A stretch of DNA of 64,000 nucleotides from Pseudomonadota bacterium. GTDB lineage: Bacteria; Pseudomonadota; Gammaproteobacteria; Burkholderiales; Gallionellaceae. Below the pieces are notes generated by a model that was not told where the DNA came from, searched no databases, and worked only from the letters and a program-made list of their open reading frames with translations. Shown one piece after another: positions 12,432-16,005 of the stretch; the first letter of the stretch is position 1, and each line of letters opens with the position of its first letter. Location: contig JAJYYO010000002.1 in NCBI GenBank assembly GCA_021800795.1, positions 1-64,000 on the forward strand, in the 5' to 3' direction. Made by a program: the position numbers and the translations under genes.

Positions 12432-12433
12432 AA

Positions 12434-12471
12434 GTAGGGTGGATAAAGCCCGCAGGGCGTATCCACCACCC
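12434..12471 (+). repeat. REP element, left copy
   Basis: A GTAG tetranucleotide is followed by an imperfect palindrome: GGGTGGATAA and GTATCCACC arms around a GCCCGCAGGGC core. This is the usual architecture of a REP sequence served by a REP-associated tyrosine transposase. It lies between the gatA stop and the transposase start and is inverted relative to the right copy at 12996-13028. Confidence 0.85.
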
Positions 12472-12476
12472 GAAAA

Positions 12477-12995
12477 ATGAGCGACTACAGGCGAGCTTTC
12501 CAACCAGGCGGATGTTATTTCTTTACCGTCGTGACATACGAGCGCAGGCCTTGGCTAATCGAAAAACCTGCGATCGAGCGTTTAAGGAAAGCCTTCCGTC
12601 ATGTCATGAAAGCTCGTCCGTTTTCGATTGATGCCATTGTTATATGGCCCGATCATCTGCACTGTATCTGGCAATTACCGGAAGGTGACCATGATTTTCC
12701 GGAACGTTGGCGGCAAATTAAACGGTTTGTGTCAATCGGCCTGGAAAGTCCGCTTAATGCACGCAATGAAAAGGCGTTGTGGCAACGACGATACTGGGAG
12801 CACTTGATTAAAGATGAAGAAGACTGGTATCGTCATATCGATTACATTCATTATAATCCAGTCAAACACGGTTACGTCACACGTCCTGCCGATTGGCCAT
12901 ACGGCTCTTTCAAACTTGCAATGAAGCGTGGCTGGTATGACGCCACTTGGGGCGATGCGGAACCTTCTTCTATCGCCGGAATGACATTTGAATAA
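12477..12995 (+). CDS. rayT: REP-associated tyrosine transposase (RAYT, IS200/Y1 family)
   Basis: A 172-residue single-domain HUH enzyme. The metal-binding HUH motif is seen in [13 protein letters not shown] (His-Leu-His), and the catalytic tyrosine is in the helix [19 protein letters not shown]. The N-terminus [24 protein letters not shown] is typical of RAYTs. These enzymes cut and rejoin single-stranded REP DNA and are normally single-copy and domesticated rather than freely mobile. The gene is bracketed precisely by an inverted REP pair, its stop codon abutting the right REP, and it splits gatCA from gatB. All motifs look intact. Confidence 0.9.
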
Positions 12996-13028
12996 TGGTG
13001 GATACGGCTGCGCCTTTATCCACCCTAC
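12996..13028 (-). repeat. REP element, right copy
   Basis: On the minus strand this reads GTAGGGTGGATAAAGG then the core GCGCAGCC and GTATCCACC, matching the left copy at 12434-12471 in arms and GTAG head but differing in the loop. The two are in inverted orientation around the transposase gene, so together they form a BIME-like unit. Confidence 0.85.
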
Positions 13029-13048
13029 AAAATAGGACTACACAAATC

Positions 13049-14503
13049 ATGCAATGGGAAACCGTCATCGGGCTGGAAGTGCACACGCAACTCTCCACCC
13101 AAACCAAAATTTTCTCCGGCGCGTCCACCACCTATGGCGCAGAGCCCAACACGCAGGCGGATGCGGTGAGCATCGCGCTGCCCGGCGTGTTGCCGGTACT
13201 GAACAAGGGTGCGGTTGAGCGCGCCATCAAGTTCGGCCTGGCAGTCGGTGCGCATATCGCGCCGCGCTCGGTGTTTGCGCGCAAAAATTATTTCTACCCC
13301 GACCTGCCCAAAGGCTACCAGATCAGCCAGTTCGATCTGCCGGTAGTCGGCATGGGCTCGTTGACCATACAGGTCGAGCCGCTATCAGGAAATGCAAAAC
13401 CCTACGAAAAAGTCGTGCGCATCACCCGCGCGCACCTGGAAGAAGACGCGGGAAAATCGGTGCACGGTGCATCGCAAGGCATGACCGGCGTGGATCTGAA
13501 CCGGGCCGGCACGCCGCTGCTGGAAATCGTATCCGAACCCGATATGTGTTCCGCCGCCGAGGCGGTGGCGTATGCAAAAACGCTGCACACGCTGGTGCGC
13601 TGGATCGGCATCTCGGACGGCAACATGCAGGAAGGCTCATTCCGCTGCGATGTGAACGTATCGGTGCGACGTAAAGGCGAGCCGCTCGGCACGCGGCGCG
13701 AGATCAAGAACCTCAATTCGTTCAAATTCATGCAACAGGCCATCGATTACGAGGTGCAGTGGCAGATCGACACCCTCGAAAATGGCGGAAAAATCCATCA
13801 GGCCACTATCCTGTTCAACCCGGATACCGGCGAGACGCGCGCGATGCGCAGCAAGGAAGACGCGCACGATTATCGTTACTTTCCGGACCCGGACCTGCTG
13901 CCGCTGGACATCACCCCTTCCATGCTGGAGGAGGTGCGCGCCACACTGCCTGAACTGCCGGAAGCTCGCCGCGGCCGTTATGTAAAGGAGCTAGGCTTGT
14001 CTGCTTATGATGCGTCCAGCCTTACGTCATCGCGCGAAATGGCGGATTTCTTCGATGTGTGCGTAAACGCCGTCGGTCACGCCAATGCCAAGCTGTGCGC
14101 CAACTGGATCATCGGCGAGGTCAGCGCCCAGCTCAATCGCGACGGACTGGAAATGGCGCAATGCCCGGTCTCCCCGCAACAGCTGAGCGGCATGCTGCTG
14201 CGCATTGCGGATGGCACCATTTCCAACTCCGGTGCGAAGGAATTATTCCGCACCCTGTGGGCGGAAGGCGAGACAGCGGATGCGATTATCGAAGCAAAAG
14301 GGCTGAAACAGGTTTCCGATTCGGGCGCAATCGAAGCGCTGGTGGATGAAATCATCGCCACCCATGCAGACAAAGTCGCTGAATACCGTTCAGGCAAAGA
14401 CAAACTGTTCGGCTTCTTTGTAGGGCTTGCGATGAAGGCCAGCAAAGGCAAGGCCAATCCGGCGCAACTGAACGAGGTGCTGCTGAAAAAACTGGCAGGT
14501 TAA
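13049..14503 (+). CDS. gatB: Asp-tRNA(Asn)/Glu-tRNA(Gln) amidotransferase subunit B
   Basis: A 484-residue GatB. The N-terminal catalytic domain has [13 protein letters not shown], the [18 protein letters not shown] motif, [11 protein letters not shown] and the [17 protein letters not shown] stretch; the C-terminal tail domain (about 330-484) binds the tRNA acceptor arm. The ATG at 13049 ([10 protein letters not shown]) is the family start; the frame to 12995 begins inside the REP element. Expression from the gatCA promoter would require read-through of the 620-bp RAYT/REP insert. Confidence 0.95.
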
Positions 14504-14559
14504 AATATTCATTGTCAGGTTTTGGCGAATCCAGCATAATCCGCTTTGCCGTTCAGACC

Positions 14560-14787
14560 AATGGGAGAGTGTGGTTTTGATACCACCGCCGAAGGCGTAA
14601 CACCCGTAACCGCTCAGGCAAAAGAACTATTGGCACAGGCAAATCTGGAGAGCGCAGGCTAAACCTGCCACCGAAGGGGCACGCAAAATCGTCATTCCCG
14701 CGAAGGCGGGAATCCAGTTGAATAGCTGGATTCCGGGTCTGGCCCGGAATGGCATTTTGTAATCTCTCAGGTACCAAGGACAGATGG
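14560..14787 (+). ncRNA. Tandem glycine riboswitch (gcvT RNA) with an insertion in aptamer 2
   Basis: Aptamer 1 (about 14562-14635) shows GGGAGAGT, then CCGCCGAAGGCGTAA and CGCTCAGGCAAAAGAAC. Aptamer 2 (about 14644-14787) shows CTGGAGAGC, then CCACCGAAGGGGCACG and, further on, ATCTCTCAGGTACCAAGGAC. Both are the conserved elements of the glycine aptamer. The RNA lies directly upstream of gcvT and a terminator, the expected position for glycine-induced antitermination. In aptamer 2 the segment after the GGGGC motif, normally a short P3 stem-loop, is replaced by about 70 bp of palindromic repeat (14689-14759). Confidence 0.92.
14689..14759. repeat. Palindromic repeat inserted in riboswitch aptamer 2
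   Basis: The segment starts CGTCATTCCCGCGAAGGCGG and ends GGCCCGGAATGGCATTTTG. It contains nested inverted repeats: CATTCC pairs with GGAATG on the outside, GGAATCCAG pairs with CTGGATTCC around an 8-nt loop, and GGG(TCTGG)CCC forms a small hairpin. This is the common proteobacterial CGTCATTCCCGCG-type repeat; a shorter relative is at 47596-47623. Confidence 0.85.
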
Positions 14788-14821
14788 GGCGCAGCACGAT
14801 TTTCGTGCTGCGCCTTTTTTT
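14788..14821 (+). terminator. Rho-independent terminator, expression platform of the glycine riboswitch
   Basis: A perfect 12-bp stem (14788-14799 with 14803-14814, GGCGCAGCACGA and its complement) closes a 3-nt loop and is followed by seven T residues. It ends 12 bp before the gcvT ATG, so it can only act by transcription attenuation ahead of the gcv operon. Confidence 0.92.
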
Positions 14822-14833
14822 GTGAAAGCCGAC

Positions 14834-15922
14834 ATGACTCTTAAAACAACTCCCCTCAATGCCGCACACCGCGCAATGGGTGCAAAAATGGTGGATTTCG
14901 GCGGCTGGGACATGCCGGTGAACTACGGTTCACAGATCGACGAACACCATCAGGTGCGTAATGATTGCGGCATGTTTGACGTGTCCCACATGCGCGTGCT
15001 GGATATGAAAGGCGAGGGTGTGCGTGACTTTCTGCGTTACCTGCTGGCGAACAACGTGGACAAGCTGACAATGCCCGGCAAAGCGCTTTATTCCGCGATG
15101 TTGCTGGAAAACGGCGGTGTGATCGATGACCTGATCGTCTATTTCATGAACGAAAACTGGTTCCGCATCGTGGTCAATGCAGGCACGGCGGACAAGGACA
15201 TCGCCTGGATGAAGAAACAGGCTGAACTGCATGCGCCACAACTCGACATCGCGGATCATCCTGAACTGGCGATGATCGCCGTGCAGGGACCGAATGCGCG
15301 CGCCAAAGTATGGGACGCGTTGCCCGGCAGTCGGGAACTGACCGAAAAACTGATCCCTTTCAGTGCGGTGGAAATGGGCGCCATGTTCATCGCGCGCACC
15401 GGCTACACCGGCGAAGACGGCTTCGAGATCATGATACCGGCCAAGGCGGCGCCGTTCTTCTGGGCGACGCTGGCGGAAAAAGGCGTCAAACCCATCGGGC
15501 TTGGTGCGCGCGACACGCTGCGCCTTGAGGCCGGCATGAACCTCTATGGACAGGACATGGACGAGAGCGTCGGCCCGCTGGAATCGGGTCTTGCCTGGAC
15601 GGTGGACCTTAAAAGTCCCCGCGACTTCATCGGCAAGCAAGCGCTGCTGGCACATCCGCCAACGCACAAACTGGTCGGCCTGGTATTGCTGGATCGCGGC
15701 GTATTGCGCGGGCATCAACAGGTGCACACCGCACACGGCAACGGCGAGATCACCAGCGGCAGCTTCTCCCCCACGCTGGAAAAATCCATCGCGCTGGCTC
15801 GCGTACCCGTCGAGGTTACCATCGGCGATACGGTACAGGTTGCCATTCGCGATAAAATGCTGAGCGCACAGGTGGTCAAGTATCCGTTCGCAAGAAATGG
15901 CAAGGCAGTCGTTAGCCTCTAG
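14834..15922 (+). CDS. gcvT: Glycine cleavage system T protein (aminomethyltransferase)
   Basis: A 362-residue folate-binding T protein. It begins [20 protein letters not shown] and has [13 protein letters not shown], the [11 protein letters not shown] stretch containing the catalytic Asp region, [12 protein letters not shown], and [20 protein letters not shown]. It transfers the methylene group from the lipoyl arm of GcvH to tetrahydrofolate, releasing ammonia. ATG 14834 is preferred; GTG at 14822 lies against the terminator U-tract. No good ribosome-binding site is visible between the terminator and the start, which is odd. Its stop codon falls in a heptamer repeat. Confidence 0.95.
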
Positions 15923-15993
15923 TCGCTAGTCGGTAGTTAAAACCGCGTAGCGACCAACCCAACTAATGACTAACGACTAGTAACTAACAACTG
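15920..15993. repeat. Heptamer-period inverted repeat between gcvT and gcvH
   Basis: Left arm units AGTCGCT, AGTCGGT, AGTTAAA and right arm units ACTAATG, ACTAACG, ACTAGTA, ACTAACA are approximate reverse complements around a loop containing GCGTAGCG. The resulting RNA hairpin lies within the operon, immediately before the strong gcvH ribosome-binding site GAAGGAG. Confidence 0.8.
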
Positions 15994-16005
15994 AAGGAGT
16001 TTTAA

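Follow-up and report, generated by a model that had tools for sequence, protein, structure and literature searches.

A CGTC-type REP palindrome pair in the second aptamer of a tandem glycine riboswitch, and extended aptamer arms across the Gallionellaceae

Within the window (the whole 64,000-nucleotide stretch analysed, at the start of contig JAJYYO010000002.1 of a Gallionellaceae genome), positions 14552–14821 carry what a covariance search and a terminator scan confirm as a tandem glycine riboswitch with its terminator, and the P3b hairpin of its second aptamer contains a pair of CGTC-type REP palindromes. The reading favoured here, which is judged quite probable, is that of a functional ON-riboswitch of gcvT–gcvH in which a REP dimer inserted at the P3b tip of aptamer 2 is tolerated, the tips of this aptamer being a recurrent landing place. 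Extra sequence at the P2 and/or P3b tip was found in 44 of the 137 species of the family in which aptamer 2 could be read, three of them having it at both. The parts, namely the riboswitch and the repeat type, are known and it is their recurrent combination that is unusual; a search of open-licence papers found no report of a repeat inside a riboswitch aptamer.

Anatomy of the riboswitch and its insertion

A covariance search with RF00504 matched window positions 14552–14639 of the + strand over the full model (1–94) at 62 bits and positions 14640–14789 of the same strand at 42 bits, both above the gathering score of 32. In a search of the whole genome the second match was placed at 14635–14793 with 50.7 bits. 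The expression platform was detected by a pattern scan as a terminator-like hairpin at 14786–14816 with a T-run after it. The tandem aptamers and terminator lie upstream of gcvT, which is followed by gcvH, with gatB on the other side, and gcvT was the sole match in a search of a plasmid collection. The first-pass annotation had described a glycine riboswitch with two aptamers and a terminator and had proposed a covariance search; this search and the terminator scan bear out the description, with aptamer 2 at the claimed site and the repeat as an insertion within it. The features of the locus are as follows.

12477–12995, + strand: RAYT-like Y1 transposase gene between gatA and gatB (PF01797, E 5.5e-7), with GTAG-type hairpins at both ends
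12995–14503: gatB (ORF list, domain search)
14512–14540, + strand: candidate sigma-70-like promoter of the riboswitch–gcv transcript, TTGTCA-17-CATAAT, just 3' of gatB (consensus scan alone, 10/12)
14552–14639, + strand: aptamer 1 (RF00504, 62 bits)
14603–14605, + strand: candidate pseudoknot strand CCC, in the aptamer 1 P3b loop (CCC/GGG co-occurrence in relatives; pseudoknot described for the class in PMC13104608)
14640–14789, + strand: aptamer 2 including the insertion (RF00504, 42 bits)
14654–14668, + strand: P2 hairpin of aptamer 2, GCAGG..CCTGC, of normal length here and the second insertion site in relatives (sequence)
14669–14681, + strand: 5' core of aptamer 2, CACCGAAGGGGCA (invariant in all 137 species)
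14683–14689, + strand: 5' strand of the P3b stem, GCAAAAT, partner of 14754–14760 (sequence; minimum-energy folds)
14690–14717, + strand: CGTC-REP unit 1, comprising CGTC, an 8-bp stem ATTCCCGC/GCGGGAAT, loop GAAG and tail CCA (58 matches in its own genome; anatomy compared with PMC3733652)
14726–14753, − strand: inverted REP unit 2, comprising an 8-bp stem ATTCCGGG/CCCGGAAT, a 5-nt loop and a degenerate tag (sequence)
14754–14760, + strand: 3' strand of the P3b stem, ATTTTGT (sequence; minimum-energy folds)
14761–14773, + strand: 3' core of aptamer 2, AATCTCTCAGGTA (invariant in all 137 species)
14786–14789, + strand: GGGG 3' of aptamer 2 P1, candidate partner of the aptamer 1 CCC and base of the terminator (sequence)
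14786–14821, + strand: intrinsic terminator, the expression platform (pattern scan: 14 pairs, loop of 3, T-run)
14834–15922, + strand: gcvT (PF01571, E 1.9e-80; PF08669), with a probable ATG start (the ORF list has GTG at 14822)

The covariance model left 69 nt unaligned within the aptamer 2 P3 hairpin, where the model itself has 4, and the P3b segment is 79 nt long in the window, the commonest length among relatives being 15 nt. The recognisable repeat occupies 59–64 nt (14690–14753). The P3 arm had initially been described as replaced by about 70 bp of repeat, the remainder of which is the 7-bp stem GCAAAAT/ATTTTGT joining the repeat to P3b; a repeat does lie in P3, but it extends the P3b tip alone and leaves P3a and the P3b base intact. 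Unit 1 fits the complete anatomy that defines CGTC-REPs, with a CGTC tag, a stem of 8–9 bp starting from AT, a loop of 4–5 nt and a CCA tail, and in unit 2 the stem and loop are present and the tag is degenerate.

At a tolerance of up to three mismatches, the unit CATTCCCGCGAAGGCGGGAATCCAG is present at one place in the window and absent from all of 100 shuffles. BLAST matched the insert 58 times in the host genome, a figure that takes in the insert itself and incomplete pieces; here and in the other genome BLAST figures given below, matches and not copies are counted, and fragments, the two strands of a palindrome and the copy in the riboswitch each add to the number. The two short motifs face each other in 14 of 29 other matching loci, some of these loci being two ends of one pair, and 16 further loci picked by hand comprised 12 facing pairs and 4 solo units. 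A chance resemblance to a repeat is ruled out by the shuffles and the genome matches, and the insert is a pair of CGTC-type REP palindromes and a dispersed repeat of the host genome, which agrees with the mobile-type palindrome that had been proposed for aptamer 2. The CGTC-1 REPs of PMC3733652 (dRS3 in Neisseria) share with it the CGTC tag, the 8-bp stem from AT, the 4-nt loop, the CCA tail and the arrangement as dimers, and they likewise have no transposase gene alongside; 'S. lithotrophicus', taken here as Sideroxydans, is among the CGTC-positive species of that paper. The window copy differs in being embedded in an aptamer, and the main text of PMC3733652 does not contain the word 'riboswitch'.

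The RAYT-like gene 1.7 kb upstream was considered as the mover of the insert. It is flanked by a GTAGGGTGGATAA-type GTAG hairpin and its inverse (window 12433–13030), hairpins of another sequence than the repeat in the riboswitch, so that the insert does not belong with the GTAG-REPs of this gene. Exact short motifs of the CGTC type were absent from the loci (1.6–3.3 kb) of the five Y1_Tnp matches of the genome. The gene is probably not the mover, and CGTC repeats are described in PMC3733652 as having no known transposase. Among the compared loci the sole match to the RAYT gene was a paralogue of the same genome at 49% identity (locus L328), and most of these loci do not span the gap between gatA and gatB.

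The layout is that of the gcvT-type tandem glycine riboswitch of RF00504, with the same two aptamers, core motifs, terminator, CCC/GGG strands and position upstream of gcvT; it differs in the REP dimer held by P3b of aptamer 2 and in the extension of P2 or P3b in the 44 family members. CCC in P3b of aptamer 1 together with GGG right after aptamer 2 was present in 131 of 131 rows of a loose parse, in which aptamer 1 was unread in 6 rows and 9 Nitrotoga-like rows had false P2 lengths of 160–187. A poly-C/poly-G pseudoknot has been described for gcvT-type glycine riboswitches in PMC13104608, where the aptamer is not specified. Since GGGG at 14786–14789 doubles as the base of the terminator, this pseudoknot would compete with the terminator in the window. 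In the presence of glycine, both aptamers would fold and CCC in P3b of aptamer 1 would pair with GGG behind aptamer 2, a pairing that would take the base of the terminator stem and let transcription proceed into gcvT, while the terminator would form when glycine is absent. Judged by this arrangement of strands, the riboswitch would be an ON switch. The REP dimer at the P3b tip would act as a longer side arm because the repeat can fold on itself and its ends pair, and the glycine pocket, P1, P2 and P3a would be left untouched.

Insertions across the family

The riboswitch was found in 140 of the 158 genomes of the window's family, and a laxer RF00504 search of the remaining 18 gave no riboswitch. 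The locus was taken from all 140 genomes, the window included, and 137 were retained after leaving out L112 and L251, which lie at contig ends, and the degraded L356. The exact 17-base start of aptamer 2 was present in at least 80 loci, about half of those listed being assigned to Gallionella, Gallionellaceae, Sideroxydans, Sideroxyarcus, Ferrigenium or Nitrotoga. The P2 segment of aptamer 2 measured 14–17 nt in 107 of the 137 and at least 28 nt in the other 30, and the P3b segment 13–28 nt in 120 and at least 40 nt in 17, two P3b lengths of 19 being parse offsets. These cut-offs of 28 nt and 40 nt were set after the lengths were known, and at 80 nt the P2 count becomes 25. The comparison with relatives that the first-pass annotation had recommended thus refutes an insertion common to all homologues, P3b being shorter than 40 nt in 120 of 137.

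Covariance searches lose insert-bearing aptamers: 16 of the 24 genomes with a single RF00504 match carry an insert in the other aptamer. As a control, TPP riboswitches were searched for in 41 genomes of the genus, 35 of which gave 36 matches in total, all of them 91–115 nt long; 21 genomes had a match above the cut-off in this control and its strict filter may have dropped long ones.

Some irregular leaders should also be noted. In L356 (genome G156) the glycine riboswitch is degraded, with aptamer 1 apparently lost and aptamer 2 altered, and no match was found in G157, from the same genus group. About 110 nt of other sequence interrupt the terminator behind aptamer 2 in L079 and L096, which alters the expression platform. 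More than 60 nt separate the T-run from gcvT in 15 of 128 leaders (median 18), partly taken up by repeats, and long spacers of this kind include those of L066, L069, L075, L091, L095, L240, L243, L245, L286, L296 and L298.

The inserts of the 44 bearers were sorted by eye on their segments into about five palindrome families. In P3b, CGTC-REP dimers or single units occur in 9 species, the window being one of them, a type E of about 134 nt in 3 and shorter AT-rich extensions in 5. In P2, type B with TTAGTCGTTAG-like units occurs in 9 species, type C (CTCGCGTAGCGAG...CCCTCGCCC...GGGAGAGGG) in 13 and type D in 1, besides four others and a D2 group (L108, L235 and L351) whose arms resemble one another, two of its members being short and footprint-like. 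Exact short motifs recovered this sorting in 9/9 cases for CGTC-REP, 3/3 for E, 8/9 for B, 11/13 for C and 1/1 for D, and by these motifs CGTC-REP and E lie solely in P3b (12/12) and B, C and D solely in P2 (20/20). None of the repeat-family motifs was found in the 130 nt before aptamer 2, which is the region of aptamer 1, in the 137 rows (shorter in L266).

Whole-genome dispersal searches covered types B, C, D and E. Type B gave 68 matches in G014, 54 in G051, 32 in the window's genome, 21 in G024, 12 in G114 and 6 in G015, and was scarce in other hosts with 1 match each in G117 and G116 and 0 in G153. Type C was matched 31 times in G008, 23 times in the window's genome and 20 times in G016, the remaining six hosts having 2 to 7 matches, and type D gave 46 in G057, 3 in G070, 1 in G022 and 0 in the window's genome. 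Type E matched itself alone in G010, with 4 matches in G005 and 2 in the window's genome. B, C and D are therefore dispersed repeats in their hosts, with uneven match numbers. A B-type repeat is also present at window 15906–15994, at the end of gcvT and before gcvH in the same operon.

A further element of about 60–65 nt, N (GATAACCAGCGACTT...TAGTCGAATGGCTAG), is nested in C within the P2 arm of L113, L234, L254, L309, L347 and L350, C being without it in L105 and L269, and in a CGTC-REP within the P3b arm of L259. Copies of N also lie at window 24876 and 53475, with no Rfam match at the gathering score. By eye its ends are conserved and the letters of its inner stem change in pairs, and many copies lie inside C-type or REP palindromes. 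The family offers numerous sites where CGTC-type REPs and other palindromes have inserted and where the empty site is easily recognised.

Turnover and choice of site

When mapped on a tree of gcvT from 132 species, 28 of which bear a P2 insert, the P2 trait requires 26 changes compared with a mean of 25.9 and a minimum of 23 in 100 label shuffles, and the P3b insert (17 bearers) needs 12 compared with a mean of 16.1 and a minimum of 13. The P2 trait is thus distributed near-randomly on the tree and the P3b trait is somewhat clustered. Five of the 137 rows were dropped from this tree, which is built on a short gene piece with some weak forks, and its figures are counts of changes in which gain, loss and transfer are not separable; an earlier gcvT tree of 123 rows gave 18 (P2) and 10 (P3b) changes.

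It is a serious possibility that the scatter was produced not by insertion time and again but by entire gcvT leaders passing horizontally between species, or by deep inheritance followed by numerous losses. L105 (G016, group g1) and L234 (G145, group g14) share the same arms and C element and yet are far apart by gcvT, which suggests that part of the scatter is due to inheritance or transfer of old insertions and not to new insertion. Because similar arms surround C in distant hosts and each family is confined to one site, either transfer or old inheritance of some inserts, or a choice of site, is indicated. Nevertheless, about five families, two sites and the nestings require several separate insertions in any case, and with the number of families per site as a lower bound these would be three or four in P2 and two or three in P3b, with the nestings in addition.

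The confinement of families to one site (12/12 in P3b for A, the CGTC-REP family, with E; 20/20 in P2 for B, C and D) is also what would be expected if the tips were true targeting hot spots, with palindromes or transposases seeking DNA hairpin loops or particular sites. N is nested in other palindromes both in the riboswitch arms and elsewhere, and by rough rates the P2 tip is occupied in 30/137 and the P3b tip in 17/137, in loops mostly of 4–6 nt, as against 15/128 for the spacer between terminator and gcvT with its median of 18 nt. However, P2 of aptamer 1 is also a hairpin and the motifs were absent there in the 137 rows, one old insertion per family with later spread would give the same split, and selection against other sites would give the same picture. 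The counts are moreover inflated by shared inheritance, and the CGTC repeats are reported to be without a known transposase (PMC3733652). Targeting of this kind is possible but doubtful. A stronger version, in which the tips are a continuing hot spot for site-choosing, hairpin-seeking palindromes with no known transposase, and the sensor a standing habitat with nested arrivals and footprints whose changing arms alter the kinetics of the switch between species, is improbable.

In the best reading, the tips are a tolerated place of fast turnover for self-folding mobile palindromes. Palindromes of about five families would arrive, nest, shrink and vanish at the P2 and P3b tips of aptamer 2. These tips would be the recurrent landing place because they would point away from the glycine pocket and the dimer contacts, while P3b of aptamer 1 would be locked by the CCC–GGG pseudoknot. 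Aptamer 1 P3b has a single length in 114 of 114 strictly parsed rows, and aptamer 1 P2 reaches up to 55 nt in correctly parsed rows. Taken over 137 species, the inserts constitute a natural insertion scan that shows the free and the locked arms of a tandem glycine riboswitch.

State of the second aptamer

The core motifs CACCGAAGGGGCA and AATCTCTCAGGTA are letter-for-letter identical in 137 of 137 rows although the parser tolerated three mismatches in each. The basal P2 arms of insert-bearers pair at 111 of 125 positions, a figure reached by 0 of 2000 re-deals (mean 100.3, sd 2.5). For the basal P3b arms the evidence is weak: 63 of 75 positions pair, which 33 of 2000 re-deals reached, and at 7 pairs (288 of 2000) there is no signal. 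In a folding test of 35 bearers, taken from a set of 128 rows before the final 9 joined, native pairs formed with a mean probability of 0.30 when the insert was real and of 0.18 when it was shuffled, the mean in 93 insert-free rows being 0.47. The real insert lay above its shuffle mean in 29 of the 35; below it were L062, L098, L113, L234, L236 and L309, with L113 and L309 near zero. The window alone scored 0.43 against 0.28, a difference that is not significant as 6 of 60 shuffles did as well. The claim in the first-pass annotation that the insert extends P3 without disrupting the core therefore finds indirect support, in core motifs unchanged in all rows including the 44 bearers, in the P2 arm pairing and in the majority of real inserts that exceeded their shuffle mean.

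The minimum-energy fold of the free window RNA keeps P2 and the extended P3b, and a GGAGAG–CUCUC pairing replaces P1 and P3a of aptamer 2. Confidence in a functional riboswitch was slightly lowered by this loss of P1 and P3a; such folds ignore the ligand and tertiary contacts, and insert-free relatives score poorly too. The fold would be expected if the insert had broken aptamer 2, with the switch running on aptamer 1 alone or decaying, as would the fall in native-pair probability with inserts. In N. gonorrhoeae and B. subtilis the glycine response survives the mutation of one aptamer (PMC13104608), and one relative, L356, does have a degraded riboswitch. This explanation is nonetheless unlikely, the core motifs being unchanged in all 44 bearers, even beside the decayed insert of L072, the P2 arms still pairing though their letters change, and non-bearers also folding poorly by the same method (mean 0.47). 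It is equally unlikely that the inserts were selected, the longer side arm slowing or pausing RNA polymerase or tuning the folding to a glycine set point suited to each species: 44 of 137 species carry them at one gene and the P2 arms keep pairing, but their lengths and sequences are very different, and the near-random P2 scatter (26 changes against 25.9) with insert-free close relatives points to neutral turnover.

A comparable arm is known from the N. gonorrhoeae gcvT riboswitch, which has a 73-nt P3 loop in aptamer 2 and is reported to be glycine-responsive (PMC13104608), which speaks for the switch surviving such an arm. Like that of the window its aptamer 2 P3 is long, with a predicted Y-shape of two stem-loops that varies within the genus; it differs in being a translational switch, and the main text of PMC13104608 uses the word 'insertion' 0 times and 'repeat' once. 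In the N. gonorrhoeae sequence (L311) the P3 loop contains a hairpin GCCGTCTGAA...TTCAGAC, and the same hairpin is present in G200. The hairpin of L311 resembles an inverted DNA uptake sequence. A BOX element of the pneumococcal trp operon (PMC3049150) is likewise a repeat that has been taken into a riboswitch leader and is reported as probably folding independently, but it is a single case and sits between two T-box riboswitches and not inside an aptamer stem.

To look beyond the family, 70 genomes were sampled at the level of the order. The riboswitch was present in 38 of them, those of the window and G133 included, from which 18 loci were fetched and 9 inspected. Long extensions were observed in aptamer 2 P3b (G161, G200), in aptamer 1 P2 (G173, G166) and in P2 of a single aptamer (G169). 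The asymmetry between aptamers 1 and 2 is thus a feature of the family and not a rule, since aptamer 1 P2 is extended outside it. In L329, from another family, a match to the Xanthomonas sRNA sX9 (positions 398–470, − strand, 44.9 bits against a gathering score of 44) lies inside the aptamer 2 P3b extension; a search of open-licence papers on sX9 gave nothing. This match has TTTAAAC/GTTTAAA near its ends, and sX9 may itself be a repeat. An unusually long linker between the two aptamers was also observed in L343 (G188), from another family.
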